Shown: piece by piece, positions 12,147-18,131 of the stretch | Layout of the letters: every line of letters starts with the position of its first letter | Position numbering within the stretch: position 1 is the first letter of the stretch | From: Bacillota bacterium | Lineage (GTDB): Bacteria > Actinomycetota > Aquicultoria > Aquicultorales > Aquicultoraceae | Assembly: GCA_023511485.1 (NCBI GenBank) | Contig: JAIMBH010000007.1 | Span: 1 to 64,000 of the forward strand | Direction: 5' to 3' | DNA length: 64,000 nt | The notes under the pieces: model-generated | The model's input: only the letters and a program-made list of their open reading frames with translations | Told to the model about the DNA's origin: nothing | Databases searched by the model: none | Made by a program: the position numbers and the translations under genes

Positions 12147-13046
12147 TTAAAGTATCCTTAAACCTGCTTTTTTTGCATCAGACACAGCGTTTTCAAACTC
12201 ATCTTGCGTTATTCTTCTATCCATTGGCGGGTATTTCGAAGCTTTGTGGCTGGGATAATACTGATCCATTACATTCACGCAAGTTTGCCTCGATATTTTC
12301 TTGGCTAAGAATTCCATTGCATCTGCTGTACCGGCTAAGTTTTCGGGTAATACCAAATGACGCACTAGAAGGCCACGCACTGCAACTCCGTTATCGTCGA
12401 TAACCAGATCGCCTACCTGGCGATGCATCTCAGTTATTGCAGCCTTTACAACTTGAGGATATCCTTTCACTCCGGAGAGAAGTAAAGCCGTGGCAGCATC
12501 CATGTACTTGATATCTGGCATGTAGATATCGATAACGCCATCAAGAAGCCTTAGCGTAGGGATACTGTCGTAGCCGCCCGTGTTGTAGACCAGTGGAATG
12601 GTCAATCCCCGTTCTGCTGCAATTACGAGTGCCTCAAGGATTTGCGCAACCACATGACTTGGGGATACAAAGTTTATATTATGACACCCTACCTCTTGAA
12701 GTTTTAGCATAATCTCGGCGAGCTGCTCAGCATTTACCGTATGACCTTCACGAAGCTGGCTTATCTCGTAGTTTTGGCAGAATACACAGTGCATATTGCA
12801 TGAGCTAAAAAATATTGTGCCAGACCCACCCCATCCAACAAGTGAGCTTTCTTCTCCAAAATGCGAATTATAGCTTGCGATTTTTGCATATCGACCGGTT
12901 CTGCAGGTTCCATTTGCATCTGCACCGGTTCTATCGATCTTGCAAAGCCAGGGGCAAAGATTGCATGAACCAAGACGCTTAATCGCTTCTTGCGCTCTTT
13001 TCTCAAGCAATCCTTGTTTATGAAGCTCTAAATAGCTTGGAGTCAA
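12147..13046 (-). CDS. Radical SAM protein, PflA/PflX-type
   Basis: A 299-residue radical SAM enzyme. CNMHCVFCQNYEIS (about residue 83) is the CxxxCxxC motif binding the catalytic 4Fe-4S cluster and S-adenosylmethionine. An N-terminal CNLCPWLCKI with a later CRTG matches the putative pyruvate-formate-lyase-activating-enzyme-like group (PflX, also related to the AmmeMemoRadiSam radical SAM partner). Target unknown; no glycyl radical enzyme is next to it. Start is TTG at 13046 with GGTGA upstream. A palindrome lies immediately upstream of the start. Confidence 0.85.
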   Translation of the reverse strand: MTPSYLELHKQGLLEKRAQEAIKRLGSCNLCPWLCKIDRTGADANGTCRTGRYAKIASYNSHFGEESSLVGWGGSGTIFFSSCNMHCVFCQNYEISQLREGHTVNAEQLAEIMLKLQEVGCHNINFVSPSHVVAQILEALVIAAERGLTIPLVYNTGGYDSIPTLRLLDGVIDIYMPDIKYMDAATALLLSGVKGYPQVVKAAITEMHRQVGDLVIDDNGVAVRGLLVRHLVLPENLAGTADAMEFLAKKISRQTCVNVMDQYYPSHKASKYPPMDRRITQDEFENAVSDAKKAGLRIL

Positions 13047-13566: not shown

Positions 13567-14081
13567 AAGCACTCCTCTGTAAATGATTATCTCAAGCGTC
13601 CTTATATCCAAGAGTTGCATTTTATAACCCGTATCAAAACCCGAGTCAGTAATTTATCCCAAGGCTTGCATATAAGGGCCGTTTTTAAATCTAACTCTCA
13701 ATAAAGAACTTCCATTTGACGTTATTATCTTCTCCTTGCCGTAAAAACTACTGTTATTATAGCCTTAATTGTTCCATTAGTATAAAAAGTGTCCTTTGAC
13801 AAAACCCTGCGATCCCTTGCAAACAAATCCTGTGGGCACTAACACTATCAAATTCTCAACAAATATTGACAGCTGGGAATTATGCCAACATCCATCCAAT
13901 ACATCCGGATGAATGGCTCCCTTTAAATTTTAGAGAGCTTTATTATCATATCACCTCGACAGATCCCCATCCACCAGCTTTGTGTAAAAATAAAAATTCT
14001 GCAATTAGGGTATTTACGAAAAACAGGGTGTGATCTATAGCAAAAGTTACCCATAAGTACCCAATGAGCTGAAGGAGAGCA
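13567..14081 (+). promoter_or_regulatory. AT-rich intergenic region with probable por promoter
   Basis: Over 500 bases without a credible gene. TTTACG (14013-14018) and TATAGC (14036-14041) spaced by 17 bases form a plausible promoter about 40 bases before porG. Two TTGACA hexamers at about 13796 and 13866 are further candidates without good -10 partners. Nothing else supported. Confidence 0.35.
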
Positions 14082-14645
14082 ATGATAGAGATACGCTGGC
14101 ATGGCAGAGGCGGCCAGGGTGTGGTAACAGCTGCCAAAGTGCTTGCTGCTGCGGCGCTGGATCAGGGAAAACACATACAGGCATTCCCGGAATTTGGACC
14201 GGAACGTCGAGGTGCTCCAATTCAGGCATTTACGCGAATTGACAACAATCCGATTAAGCTGTTCTCACATGTAACCTCACCGCATATTATTGTAGTTCTC
14301 GACCGTACGCTTGTCGGCAAAATCCCTTTCACTGAGGGACTCGTCAAAGACGGTACGGTCATTGTCAATTGCCGGCATTCGGCCCAGCACCTTCGTGATG
14401 AAATTGGGCTTAGCTACGGCAAAGTATTTGCCGTTGATGCTACAACTATTGCCAATGAAACCATTGGTAGGCCCATTACTAACACGCCTATGCTCGGTGC
14501 GCTAATTAAGGCCACTGAAATACTGAATATTGATGCCGTCAAGCAAGAGCTTCGGGCTTTCTTTGGGGCAAAGTTAAGCCCTAAAGCAGTACAGGCAAAC
14601 ATAGATGCGCTGCAACGTGCTTATGAGGAGGTGCACGGTGAATGA
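14082..14645 (+). CDS. porG: 2-oxoacid:ferredoxin oxidoreductase, gamma subunit
   Basis: 187 residues. The opening MIEIRWHGRGGQGVVTAAKV, with the GRGGQG loop, and EFGPERRGAP are the hallmarks of the gamma subunit of pyruvate/2-ketoisovalerate ferredoxin oxidoreductases. The tetrameric enzyme converts a 2-oxoacid and CoA to acyl-CoA and CO2 while reducing ferredoxin, in the cytoplasm of anaerobes. Start has AAGGAG seven bases upstream. The stop overlaps the delta-subunit start (ATGA). Pyruvate versus branched-chain specificity cannot be decided from this subunit; the por name is provisional. Confidence 0.93.
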   Translation: MIEIRWHGRGGQGVVTAAKVLAAAALDQGKHIQAFPEFGPERRGAPIQAFTRIDNNPIKLFSHVTSPHIIVVLDRTLVGKIPFTEGLVKDGTVIVNCRHSAQHLRDEIGLSYGKVFAVDATTIANETIGRPITNTPMLGALIKATEILNIDAVKQELRAFFGAKLSPKAVQANIDALQRAYEEVHGE

Positions 14646-14995
14646 GCAATGAACAATCTTTCGAAAACAACCGCGAACATTTGCATATCTACGATGGCGA
14701 GCCTGTTGAAGAATTTAAGGGAAAGCCGGGCTGGCGTGATATTATCGAAGGCGCAGTTATTGTAGATGCCGGTAATGCCGAGCGCTATCATACCGGTGAC
14801 TGGCGCACTGAGAGGGCAATCTGGATAGAGCAAAGATGTATCCAGTGAATGATATGTTGGATGTACTGCCCGGATGGGGCGTACTTGGTAAAGGACGAAA
14901 AGGTTGCCGGTATAGATTATAACCGTTGTAAAGGATGCGGTGTTTGTGCCGAACAATGCCCGGTTGATGCGATCGCTATGACCGAAGAACTATAG
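14642..14995 (+). CDS. porD: 2-oxoacid:ferredoxin oxidoreductase delta subunit, UGA-containing (probable selenoprotein)
   Basis: 117 codons from an ATG overlapping the porG stop to TAG at 14993-14995, with an in-frame TGA at 14846-14848 (codon 69). Before it the sequence reads normally for a delta subunit (HTGDWRTERAIWIEQRCIQ). After it the frame continues MICWMYCPDGAYLVKDEK and ends with the second cluster motif CKGCGVCAEQCP. In the family the first cluster motif is CxxCxxCxxxCP; here it is C66-I-Q-UGA-M-I-C72-W-M-Y-C76-P, so UGA stands exactly for the second cysteine. A hairpin with bulged U and GG-starting loop follows (14863-14884). I interpret codon 69 as selenocysteine, a presumed cluster ligand. 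Sequencing error or a nonsense mutation is less likely given the second such gene at 49145. If UGA terminated, the operon would lose both clusters. Confidence 0.8.
14863..14884 (+). promoter_or_regulatory. Candidate bacterial SECIS hairpin in porD
   Basis: GTAC (14863-14866), bulged T (14867), GCCC (14868-14871), loop GGATG (14872-14876), GGGC (14877-14880), GTAC (14881-14884): eight base pairs with one bulged U. The loop starts 24 bases after the TGA. Known bacterial SECIS elements have the loop about 16-37 bases downstream with G in the first two loop positions, and the E. coli fdhF element also has a bulged U. Folding was done by eye. Confidence 0.6.
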
Positions 14996-15040
14996 CAAAT
15001 CTGAGTAAATTTAGGCCAAGGTAGATTGGGGGTTATAGTA

Positions 15041-15394
15041 GTGACATTTTCCAAAACCGAGGACGAAATACCCAACGAACCGGCAGACGAGGGAAAAACC
15101 GAGACTTATAATACAGATTATAAACGTAAAGGCGGAAAGCGAGCCAAGCATGAAGCAGAATACCAGTGTGAATGGCCATCCCAAGGTGAGGCAGCGCCTG
15201 AGAAGCATAAGCTTCACCACCATAGCGGGCGGGAGCAGGCGGCTTTGGTCGACGAGGAAGACCTGTCCCCCGAGCCTGGCAACCCTGATTTCTGGCCCTC
15301 GGCGGAGCTTGATCAAGACGAGACCTGGGAGCCGCCAGCACGAAATAAACCTGATAGTTCACCCTGGTGTGAGATTCAGGAAGGTGAAGAATAG
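15041..15394 (+). CDS. Unknown hydrophilic protein inside the por operon
   Basis: A 117-residue, very hydrophilic, Glu/Lys/Pro-rich protein (EDEIPNEPADEGKTETYNTD; later DLSPEPGNPDFWP and ELDQDETWEPP), with no membrane segment and likely disordered. GTG 15041 is preceded by GGGGG eight bases upstream; a TTG at 15026 is an alternative. Its TAG overlaps the GTG of porA by one base, which indicates translational coupling and argues that it is expressed as part of the operon. I do not recognise a homologue. It could be an assembly factor or a linker of the complex; that is inference from position. Confidence 0.6.
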   Translation: MTFSKTEDEIPNEPADEGKTETYNTDYKRKGGKRAKHEAEYQCEWPSQGEAAPEKHKLHHHSGREQAALVDEEDLSPEPGNPDFWPSAELDQDETWEPPARNKPDSSPWCEIQEGEE

Positions 15395-16575
15395 TGGCCA
15401 TCCGGGTTGCATATACTGGTAACGGGGCTTGCGCGCAGGCAATGCGCCAGATAGAGCCGCATATGGTTGCAGCATACCCCATTACCCCGCAAACCGAAGT
15501 AGTAGAAGAGTTCGCTCAATTTGTAGCAGATGGCAAGGTGAAGACAAAGTTTCTGCCTGTCGAGAGCGAACACAGCGCCATGAGCGCGTGCATTGGTGGA
15601 GCTGCAGCAGGAGGGCGCGTGATGACTGCAACCTCATCCCAAGGTCTTGCCTTCATGTGGGAAATGCTATATATTGCCTCAGGGCTTCGCCTACCAATCG
15701 TTATGGGTGTAGCTAACCGAGCGCTCTCAGCCCCTATCAACATCCATGGTGATCACTCCGATACCATGGGTGCGCGAGATAGCGGTTGGGTGCAGCTTTA
15801 CTGTAAGACAGTTCAGGAAATCTACGATACCATTATTCAGGCAGTACGCATCGCTGAGCACCATGAGGTACGGTTGCCTGTCATGGTGTGCTACGATGGA
15901 TTTTCGGTCTCGCATAGTTTGATGGATCTGGAGATGTTGACTGAAGAGCAAGTAAAGAACTTCATCGGTGCTTTTAAGCCTCGGTATCCGCTACTTAATG
16001 TCGCCAACCCTGTTACCTACGGACCGCTAGCCCTTTATGATTTCTACTTTGAGTTTCGGCGCCAGCAGGCTGAAGCAATGAAGAATGCGGAGCGCATCAT
16101 TGAAGAAGTAGCAGAAGAATATTCCGCTGTTTCCGGACGCCGCTACAGTACTATTGAGCCATACCTACTCGGCGATGCTGAAATCGCGTTGGTTAGCCTG
16201 GGCTCCACAGCAAGCACAATCGAGTATGCAGTTGACAGGCTTCGCGGCGAAGGGATCGCCGCAGGCGCGCTAAGAATTCGGACCTTCCGTCCCTTCCCGG
16301 TAGATGCTATCCGCGAGGCTTTAGCGCCGGTTAAAGCAATTGCTGTAATGGATCGGGCAGAGAGCCTATCCGGTTGGGGTGGTCCGGTCGGAATTGAGGT
16401 CAAAGCAGCTTTTTACGAGGCCAAATCCCGGCCACTACTTATCAATGTAATCTACGGGTTAGGTGGCCGCGATGTAGGCGTCGATGATATATATGGCGTT
16501 TTTCGACAGCTGATGCAGGCTGTAGACGCAGGTAAAGTATCGCAGCCTGTGTATTACTTGGGGCTGCGTGAGTAG
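15394..16575 (+). CDS. porA: 2-oxoacid:ferredoxin oxidoreductase, alpha subunit
   Basis: 393 residues. The N-terminus has GNGACAQAMRQIEPHMVAAY followed by PITPQTEVVEEFA, and then SEHSAMSACIGGAAAGGRV. These are the pyrimidine-binding and substrate-domain motifs of PorA/VorB. Domain II with NVIYGLGGRDVG occurs near the end. GTG start with AAGGTGA upstream, coupled to the preceding unknown gene. Together with porG, porD and porB it makes a four-subunit enzyme. Confidence 0.94.
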   Translation: MAIRVAYTGNGACAQAMRQIEPHMVAAYPITPQTEVVEEFAQFVADGKVKTKFLPVESEHSAMSACIGGAAAGGRVMTATSSQGLAFMWEMLYIASGLRLPIVMGVANRALSAPINIHGDHSDTMGARDSGWVQLYCKTVQEIYDTIIQAVRIAEHHEVRLPVMVCYDGFSVSHSLMDLEMLTEEQVKNFIGAFKPRYPLLNVANPVTYGPLALYDFYFEFRRQQAEAMKNAERIIEEVAEEYSAVSGRRYSTIEPYLLGDAEIALVSLGSTASTIEYAVDRLRGEGIAAGALRIRTFRPFPVDAIREALAPVKAIAVMDRAESLSGWGGPVGIEVKAAFYEAKSRPLLINVIYGLGGRDVGVDDIYGVFRQLMQAVDAGKVSQPVYYLGLRE

Positions 16576-16645
16576 GCGCGAGCTCCTTAAGCTGATTTTA
16601 TCAGCTGGTATATGTGTTAGTAAAAACAGCTATGAGGTGGTCGAT

Positions 16646-17593
16646 GTGGTTGTAAATTTAAAAAGATTCTCGCGCAAACCCGAGTTATTTACCGGCGGGC
16701 ACCGTCTCTGTGCAGGCTGCGGCATTGCAACTATAGTCCGCCAGGTACTTATGGCGGTCGAAAACCCTGTCGTTGTCTCAAACGCAACCGGTTGTCTTGA
16801 AGTCGGCTCCACTATCTATCCATACACGAGTTGGAAGGTGCCCTGGATTCATAGCGCTTTCGAAAACAGCGCGGCAACAATCTCCGGTGTGGAAACTGTC
16901 TACCGGGCGCTTAGGGAAGAGGGTGCAATAACCGAAGATATCCGCTTTATTGCCATCGGTGGTGACGGCGGCACTTATGATATCGGCCTGCAGGCACTCT
17001 CAGGGGCACTCGAGCGCGGGCACGACTTCACCTATATTTGCTATGACAACGAGGCCTATATGAACACCGGCATGCAGCGCTCCAGCTCAAGTGCCTATGG
17101 TTCCTGGACCACGACTACTCCGGTTGGCAAAATTGGTAAGGGTAAGATGGTTAAGAAAAAGCCGCTCACCGATATTGTTGTCGCCCACCATATCCCTTAT
17201 GCAGCTCAGGCCGCCCCGGGTCACTGGCGCGACCTCATGACTAAAGTGCAGAAGGCACTTGCAACCAGAGGGCCATCCTTTCTAAACATCTTGCAGCCGT
17301 GCGTGCCCGGCTGGCGCATTGAGCCTTTTGAAAGCATGAAAGCGGCGAAACTCGCAGTTGAGACCTGTTACTGGCCGCTCTACGAAGTTGTAGACGGTTC
17401 CTACCGAGTCACAGTAAAGCCGAAGGAGAAAAAACCGCTTGTCGAGTATCTTAAGCTGCAGGGACGCTTCCGGCATCTTCTTTCTGAAGAAAACCGACCA
17501 CTGCTTGATGAGCTGCAGGCAGAGGTAGATGCAGCATGGGAGGAACTTCTGCAAAAGAGCGAACCGTCAGAGGCGAATCCGGAAACGAATTAG
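16646..17593 (+). CDS. porB: 2-oxoacid:ferredoxin oxidoreductase, beta subunit (TPP-binding)
   Basis: The thiamine-diphosphate subunit. FTGGHRLCAGCGIATIVRQV gives the CxGC cluster ligands, GDGGTYDIGLQ is the GDG metal/TPP motif, and the tail contains CVPGWR. About 315 residues from GTG 16646, which has GAGGTGG five bases upstream. The frame is open back to a GTG at 16568, overlapping porA by 8 bases with GGGG upstream, but the extra 26 residues look unlike the family N-terminus (normally short before the CAGC motif). Start therefore uncertain between these two. Confidence 0.92.
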   Translation: MVVNLKRFSRKPELFTGGHRLCAGCGIATIVRQVLMAVENPVVVSNATGCLEVGSTIYPYTSWKVPWIHSAFENSAATISGVETVYRALREEGAITEDIRFIAIGGDGGTYDIGLQALSGALERGHDFTYICYDNEAYMNTGMQRSSSSAYGSWTTTTPVGKIGKGKMVKKKPLTDIVVAHHIPYAAQAAPGHWRDLMTKVQKALATRGPSFLNILQPCVPGWRIEPFESMKAAKLAVETCYWPLYEVVDGSYRVTVKPKEKKPLVEYLKLQGRFRHLLSEENRPLLDELQAEVDAAWEELLQKSEPSEANPETN

Positions 17594-17714
17594 ACCAGCA
17601 ACGCTCGCTTCAGTGCAAACAACTGTTAGACTTTTACTATCAACAGGCCGGGTAATTATCAATTAGCTCTTTTAATAGTCTTACCGGACTGCGCCTAACC
17701 AATGCCTCCACTCA

Positions 17715-18131
17715 TTAGGCGACCCGGATCAGTTTATCTTGAGGTACCCAAATAGCATCGGCTGAAATGCACAATTCCCTCAGGCGAAACCTGACTAATG
17801 CCCTGCCAGATTTGCAGCCACAGGACGTTGGAACCGCTATATAAAACTGGCCTCCTACGCTATTCACATACTCATAAAAGGCCATCCATTGCTCGGCTGT
17901 GTAATCGTTGGATATTGCGTCACATGTCCCAGCCGCCAAAACAATAAATGTTTTCTCTTTATTCGCCTGCCTGCATGTTAAATCAGGAATATGCCTGCCG
18001 ATTTTAAACGGTTTTGGAAACCCGGGTAAATTCACCAGCATATCTGTATAATGCTGCTGCCTAAAATAGCTGACCATCATAGCAATTAAGCCCTTATGCA
18101 CAACGCTTTGGCTTCCTGCTTGCATTGCCAT
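17715..18131 (-). CDS. Hypothetical protein resembling a degenerate PD-(D/E)XK nuclease fold
   Basis: 138 residues from ATG with GGAGAG upstream. RHIPDLTC followed by a hydrophobic strand TFIVLAAGTCDAI, then TAEQWMAFYEYVNSVGGQFY and IAVP, follows the strand-helix pattern of restriction-endonuclease-like proteins (PD ... xExK ... Q-W helix). The usual E/K pair is replaced by LAAGT, so if related it is probably inactive. There are four cysteines including CGC. Function unknown; stands alone. Confidence 0.5.
   Translation of the reverse strand: MAMQAGSQSVVHKGLIAMMVSYFRQQHYTDMLVNLPGFPKPFKIGRHIPDLTCRQANKEKTFIVLAAGTCDAISNDYTAEQWMAFYEYVNSVGGQFYIAVPTSCGCKSGRALVRFRLRELCISADAIWVPQDKLIRVA

Follow-up and report, generated by a model that had tools for sequence, protein, structure and literature searches.

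Selenocysteine appears to replace a cluster cysteine in the ferredoxin subunit of a POR-type oxidoreductase of the Aquicultor lineage

In dicluster ferredoxin domains, cluster I is held by the first three cysteines of motif I together with the last cysteine of motif II. The ferredoxin domain of POR-type enzymes contains a medial and a distal cluster, which are positioned on the way from the proximal cluster to the surface; cluster I is the one that adjoins the proximal cluster in a modelled complex (PMC5020499). Several Fe-S proteins have been reported or predicted to contain selenocysteine (Sec). An inventory from 2026, which covers 119 prokaryotic selenoprotein families, lists, as cases of the same kind, HdrA (CxxU), an RnfB-like Fe-S domain protein (UxxC), HgcB and others, and it includes neither PorD nor any 2-oxoacid oxidoreductase (PMC13188914). 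In addition, the beta subunit of FDH3 is a predicted selenoprotein (PMC12013277). A literature search did not retrieve a PorD selenoprotein either, and the statement in an earlier sequence-only reading of the DNA studied here, that Sec had not been described for this subunit, therefore holds for both the inventory and the search. Because Sec is already known or predicted in Fe-S proteins, a PorD containing Sec would be a new selenoprotein family and not a new mechanism. Here, we describe uncultivated underground Actinomycetota (the Aquicultor lineage) in which Sec appears to replace one Fe-S cluster cysteine in the ferredoxin subunit of a POR-type enzyme.

The window, by which we mean the whole stretch of 64,000 nucleotides that was analysed, belongs to a draft genome (G000; 2.37 Mb, 58 contigs, listed completeness 100%), for which our analyses cover only the gene families and stretches that were searched. 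It contains an operon at positions 14082-17593 with the gene order porG - porD - small gene - porA - porB, the features of which are given in Table 1. The porD frame contains a single in-frame TGA, and its read-through translation is ...RCIQ-U-MICWMYCPDGA...CKGCGVCAEQCP.... Translation places the TGA at codon 69, the second position of a CxxCxxCxxxCP motif, as the sequence-only reading had claimed. The same reading had described a frame that stays open, resembles PorD and keeps a second, intact motif. This was confirmed: C96..C106-P is present, and with Cys standing for Sec the protein scores 98.7 bits on the PorD/KorD model TIGR02179, for which the cut-off is 60.05. PorD falls short of having four cysteines in both motifs, as Sec takes the place of the second Cys of motif I. 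Since the family model does not require Cys, and the score and the operon suffice, membership of the PorD/KorD family stands; the gene context of this family is fulfilled by the neighbours PorG/C, PorA and PorB. Directly after the UGA, an in-frame AUG (14849-14851) is present in all four genomes that are compared below.

Table 1. Positions in the window of the por operon and of the elements within porD
Feature	Position	Strand	Basis
porG/porC, gamma subunit of 2-oxoacid:acceptor oxidoreductase	14082..14645	+	TIGR02175 (PorC/KorC model), 214 bits against a cut-off of 81; Pfam POR
porD, delta subunit, 2x[4Fe-4S] ferredoxin-like, 117 aa, proposed Sec69	14642..14995	+	TIGR02179; Fer4 domains; read-through orthologues in G004, G006 and G010
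First cluster motif, C66-IQ-U69-MI-C72-WMY-C76-P	14837..14872	+	Translation; alignment with solved delta subunits
UGA within the frame, codon 69, proposed to encode Sec at the second ligand site of motif I	14846..14848	+	Shared by four genomes as TGA; the G011 orthologue has TGC; the other aligned PorDs have Cys
Bacterial-SECIS-like hairpin, GUAC-U-GCCC-GGAUG-GGGC-GUAC	14863..14884	+	Fold of -12.2 kcal/mol
Second cluster motif, intact, C96-KG-C99-GV-C102-AEQ-C106-P	14927..14962	+	Translation; Pfam Fer4
Small accessory protein gene, 122 aa, start codon uncertain	15026..15394	+	Between porD and porA
porA, alpha subunit	15394..16575	+	Best model pyruvate synthase PorA; Pfam POR_N, PFOR_II
porB, beta subunit, start uncertain	16646..17593	+	Best model PorB; TPP; proximal cluster by homology

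A search of 60 relatives resulted in three further genomes, G010, G006 and G004, in which the same frame contains exactly one TGA, at codon 69. The PorD proteins of these genomes are 82%, 80% and 79% identical, respectively, to that of the window. As these three genomes belong to two further genera of the family, the four Sec genomes represent three genera. The por gene order is identical in G004 and G006, in both of which PorB is 88% identical to that of the window. Between genera, dS is near saturation (about 0.7 to over 2), and the dN/dS values of between-genus pairs are 0.05-0.13 before the TGA and 0.035-0.084 after it; the near-identical pair G010/G006 is uninformative, and one upstream ratio is undefined because dS is saturated. 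As the genome of the window is a draft of 58 contigs, a sequencing or assembly error, or a decaying pseudogene, had to be considered. However, the same TGA is found in four separate assemblies of three genera, dN/dS downstream of it is at most 0.09 between genera, and porG, porA and porB are intact and 83-88% identical. A TGA that is kept across near-saturated dS, with purifying selection behind it, is neither a sequencing error nor the mark of a pseudogene, and its conservation in independent genomes refutes this explanation, to which we assign next to no probability. Decay of the gene in relatives, which would have spoken against the sequence-only reading, is not what we observed: the frame is conserved and under purifying selection.

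The UGA might instead be a real stop, with the consequence that PorD is truncated or that a restart at the adjoining AUG yields two short polypeptides. Reinitiation is formally possible with an in-frame AUG at this position in all four genomes, but Met is common at that place in the Cys homologues, and the AUG therefore has another reason to be there. Moreover, a split would break the cluster motif and cost one ligand, both halves are strongly purified as one protein, the homologues are uninterrupted and have Cys exactly at the UGA site, and a complete Sec system is present in the genome (see below). A stop at codon 69, with or without restart, is in our opinion very unlikely.

Cys occupies the codon 69 site in all other PorDs aligned (n = 25-26). 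The closest Cys case is G011, a genome of the sister family, which contains the only true orthologous operon without TGA. The site is TGC in this genome, so that inspection of codon 69 in close relatives, as suggested earlier, gave TGA in G004, G006 and G010 and TGC in G011. Identities between the operons of G011 and the window are 65% for PorG, 52-54% for PorD, 67% for PorA and 71% for PorB; the small gene of G011 is partial and lies at a contig end. A tree built from 25 PorDs unites the four Sec sequences in a single group (support 82/87, recovered in 90% of the bootstrap trees), to which the Cys row of G011 is sister (support 84/92). Most simply, Sec would have arisen once from an ancestral Cys by a single base change (TGC or TGT to TGA), as judged from this tree, although a loss of Sec in G011 is not excluded.

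We scanned about 85,000 species genomes for the pattern CxxUxxC[WF]xxCP[DE]; Sec at other ligand positions or outside this pattern is missed by such a scan, and records very near the genome of the window may have been left out. Only two of the 32 matches lie in PorD frames, and both belong to the Aquicultor lineage: 'Candidatus Aquicultor primus' and an Actinomycetota genome from Yes70-03, which are among the four Sec-PorD genomes. The remaining 30 matches lack a ferredoxin-like frame and were rejected as chance occurrences. Within the genome of the window, neither another CxxUxxC ferredoxin motif nor a UxxCxxCxxxCP motif was found. Sec-PorD is present in only 4 of the 36 genomes examined of the class, and the porD of this operon is absent from two genomes that belong to the same genus as the window.

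Several features of the operon bear on the type of enzyme. The small 122-aa protein, for which no Pfam or NCBIfam family was matched, has conserved CEWPS and SSPWCE ends. Outside the four genomes with Sec-POR, its gene was found only in the orthologous Cys operon of G011, and its presence there means that it goes with this type of POR and not with Sec. PorA scores 498 bits on its best model and PorB 366 bits, which is under the equivalog cut-offs of 550 and 405, respectively (pyruvate-specific POR equivalogs NF040682 and NF008819). The genome also encodes a second, all-Cys POR operon with the order porG-D-A-B on another contig (L095 3661-6704, G000:C3). The subunits of this paralogue are 55% (PorA), 55% (PorB), 51% (PorG) and 47% (PorD) identical to those of the window complex, and they too remain under the pyruvate cut-offs (PorA 518, PorB 395). 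As neither complex exceeds these cut-offs, the 2-oxoacid of the Sec complex is not established. The description of the protein as part of a central-carbon enzyme, given in the sequence-only reading, consequently calls for caution, as the substrate is missing and the window complex is the second, paralogous POR of the genome.

The G+C content of the por operon (14001-18000) is 0.50-0.51, that of its flanks 0.41-0.42 and that of the rest of the window mostly 0.42-0.49. This contrast and the scattered distribution within the family are a hint of horizontal transfer or of a different expression class. Upstream of the operon, at 12147-13046 on the minus strand, lies a 299-aa gene with cysteine motifs like those of a radical SAM activating enzyme.

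The genome contains selC-selB-selA-selD in one compact cluster on contig C47 (L094 323-5348). The tRNA-Sec, which has anticodon UCA, scores 76.2 bits and is also called by ARAGORN; selB scores 415 bits against a cut-off of 242, selA 639 bits against a cut-off of 268, and selD, which is of the Sec type, 368 bits. SelD is itself a selenoprotein (SHKSGUAAK), and two fdhA genes have UGA at the Sec place (ARLUHSPTV and ARIUHSATV; C3:76501 and C13:33213). A tRNA-Sec was also found in G004 and G006 in a search that did not include G010. The full machinery and the other Sec genes imply that the organism makes selenoproteins; the lack of selA, selB, selC and selD, an outcome that would have disproved the sequence-only reading, does not apply, as all four are present.

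Some bacteria decode UGA as residues other than Sec. The porD UGA could accordingly be read as Cys, Trp or another residue by a suppressor tRNA or by near-cognate read-through. Against this, the one UCA tRNA that was examined is a convincing tRNA-Sec beside selA, selB and selD (no genome-wide search for UCA tRNAs was made), the SelD and FdhA Sec proteins use UGA in the same genome, and the UGA replaces Cys, which is the usual Sec/Cys exchange. Decoding as a residue other than Sec is therefore hardly plausible.

The 8-bp hairpin with a bulged U and a GG loop, 15 bases past the UGA, on which the sequence-only reading had relied in part, is present. It starts on the 15th base after the TGA and consists of 4 bp, the bulged U, 4 bp and the loop GGAUG. 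According to the SECIS criterion used, the loop lies 16-37 nt after the UGA and has a G in its first two positions; in G000, G006 and G010 the loop is GGAUG or GGACG and lies 23 nt after the UGA. G006 and G010 keep the hairpin with one compensatory pair change (C-G to U-A). The top of the porD hairpin shares its anatomy with the fdhA element (U-GGCC-GGUCU-GGCC), namely a bulged U, four pairs and a loop starting with GG, and the loop distances of 18 nt for fdhA and 17 nt for selD in the same genome compare with the 23 nt of porD. G004 has only a weak apical helix (-4.5 kcal/mol), and its minimum-energy fold has no SECIS-like loop. The shuffle z of the hairpin is -1.35, an equally stable SECIS-like loop is formed by 5.6% (G000) and 8.1% (G006) of synonymous recodings, and a comparison of the region with Rfam yielded nothing meaningful. 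The hairpin is consistent with Sec insertion without proving it and is only modest evidence. As it is not significant alone, it is conservation, the Cys/Sec exchange and the machinery that carry the case.

At the level of sequence, the analyses show that the UGA is conserved and has coding sequence under purifying selection on either side, that the orthologue and the paralogues have Cys at this site, and that the Sec machinery is complete. The selenocysteine reading of the porD UGA, as originally proposed for codon 69, is strongly supported by the TGA in four genomes, the Cys in homologues and the Sec machinery. We consider it very probable that porD is a true selenoprotein gene in which SelB and the hairpin deliver Sec to residue 69, for which no protein, selenium or read data are available. 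The hairpin just past the UGA would guide SelB, which would bring Sec-tRNA(UCA) to this codon. Residue 69 aligns with a motif-I Cys of solved delta subunits (the first motif aligns with CTKCGICQIVCPD of PDB 9bt4_G and CTECYTCWIYCPD of 5c4i_B). Given this alignment and the cluster arrangement, Sec69 should be a ligand of the medial cluster, with the Se-Fe bond being inferred from the alignment only. By homology with dicluster ferredoxin domains, Sec69 would hold cluster I together with C66, C72 and C106, and this cluster, as the putative medial one, may pass electrons along the path PorB proximal, medial, distal and ferredoxin.

The benefit of Sec is unclear. In a synthetic [4Fe4S] peptide with one Sec ligand, Ep,c was -476 mV, versus -471 mV for the Cys version, and the authors of that study state that there is little effect (PMC10946529). 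With the potential of the peptide almost unchanged, a large shift in potential is not the most likely effect, and the earlier suggestion of an altered potential or of reversible redox chemistry remains unsupported beyond inference. Protection from irreversible oxidation has been proposed for [NiFeSe] hydrogenases and formate dehydrogenases (PMC13188914). By analogy, such protection seems more likely for Sec-PorD than a large potential shift: the cluster may resist oxidative loss or be more easily repaired or rebuilt, which is a guess. POR chemistry as such does not require Sec, since the other POR encoded in the genome is all-Cys. Whether three Cys and one Sec hold the ferredoxin-type [4Fe-4S] cluster of a Sec-POR that is specific to this lineage and operates alongside an all-Cys POR, with selenium altering its working range, oxygen tolerance or direction, is a proposal that we judge evenly balanced.

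Sec might also be inserted mainly as a regulator that ties the output of the POR operon to the selenium supply, with the all-Cys POR used when selenium is short. The genome does encode such a second POR, and Treponema primitia switches between fdhFcys and fdhFsec transcripts with selenium (PMC6288185). However, expression data are lacking, and the Cys POR is a distant paralogue (47-55%) and no near-identical twin. We regard a mainly regulatory role as unlikely, although it is compatible with Sec being delivered to residue 69, and the two are not exclusive.

Sec-PorD would add a 2-oxoacid oxidoreductase to the list of selenoproteins. The four Sec genomes, the Cys orthologue operon of G011 and the all-Cys paralogue of the same genome form a natural test set for selenium as an Fe-S ligand, and the Sec/Cys pair makes it testable why the cost of Sec is borne at an electron-transfer cluster, where Sec does not act as a catalytic thiol. 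Gene-prediction programs that treat UGA as a stop would break up the porD of these genomes.

The window PorD shares the fold family, the two CxxCxxCxxxCP motifs and the operon order porG-D-(x)-A-B with other PorD/KorD proteins (TIGR02179; PDB 9bt4_G and the Moorella oxalate oxidoreductase delta subunit 5c4i_B). It differs from them in having Sec where motif I otherwise has its second Cys and in an N-terminus that is longer by about 40 residues, and its operon contains an extra small gene between porD and porA. For the heterodisulfide reductase subunit HdrA, Sec has been reported from structures as a cluster ligand. HdrA is likewise a selenoprotein with several Fe-S clusters (CxxU; PMC13188914), but it is an unrelated flavoprotein, archaeal and in part deltaproteobacterial, with a different cluster domain. 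The Fe-S cluster domain-containing selenoprotein NF005503 (RnfB-like, UxxC; PMC13188914) also has a predicted Sec in a ferredoxin-like CxxC motif, yet belongs to a different protein family and electron-transfer system (the Sec positions were not compared residue by residue). The FDH3 beta subunit of formate dehydrogenase (PMC12013277) has a predicted Sec in a ferredoxin-like electron-transfer subunit too, although of a different enzyme, and it is confined to a single organism, without TGA-containing homologues. Finally, the mercury methylation ferredoxin HgcB (PMC13188914) is, like PorD, a dicluster ferredoxin with Sec; its Sec is located in a GVGU motif, whereas that of PorD is proposed to lie within the CxxUxxC cluster motif itself.
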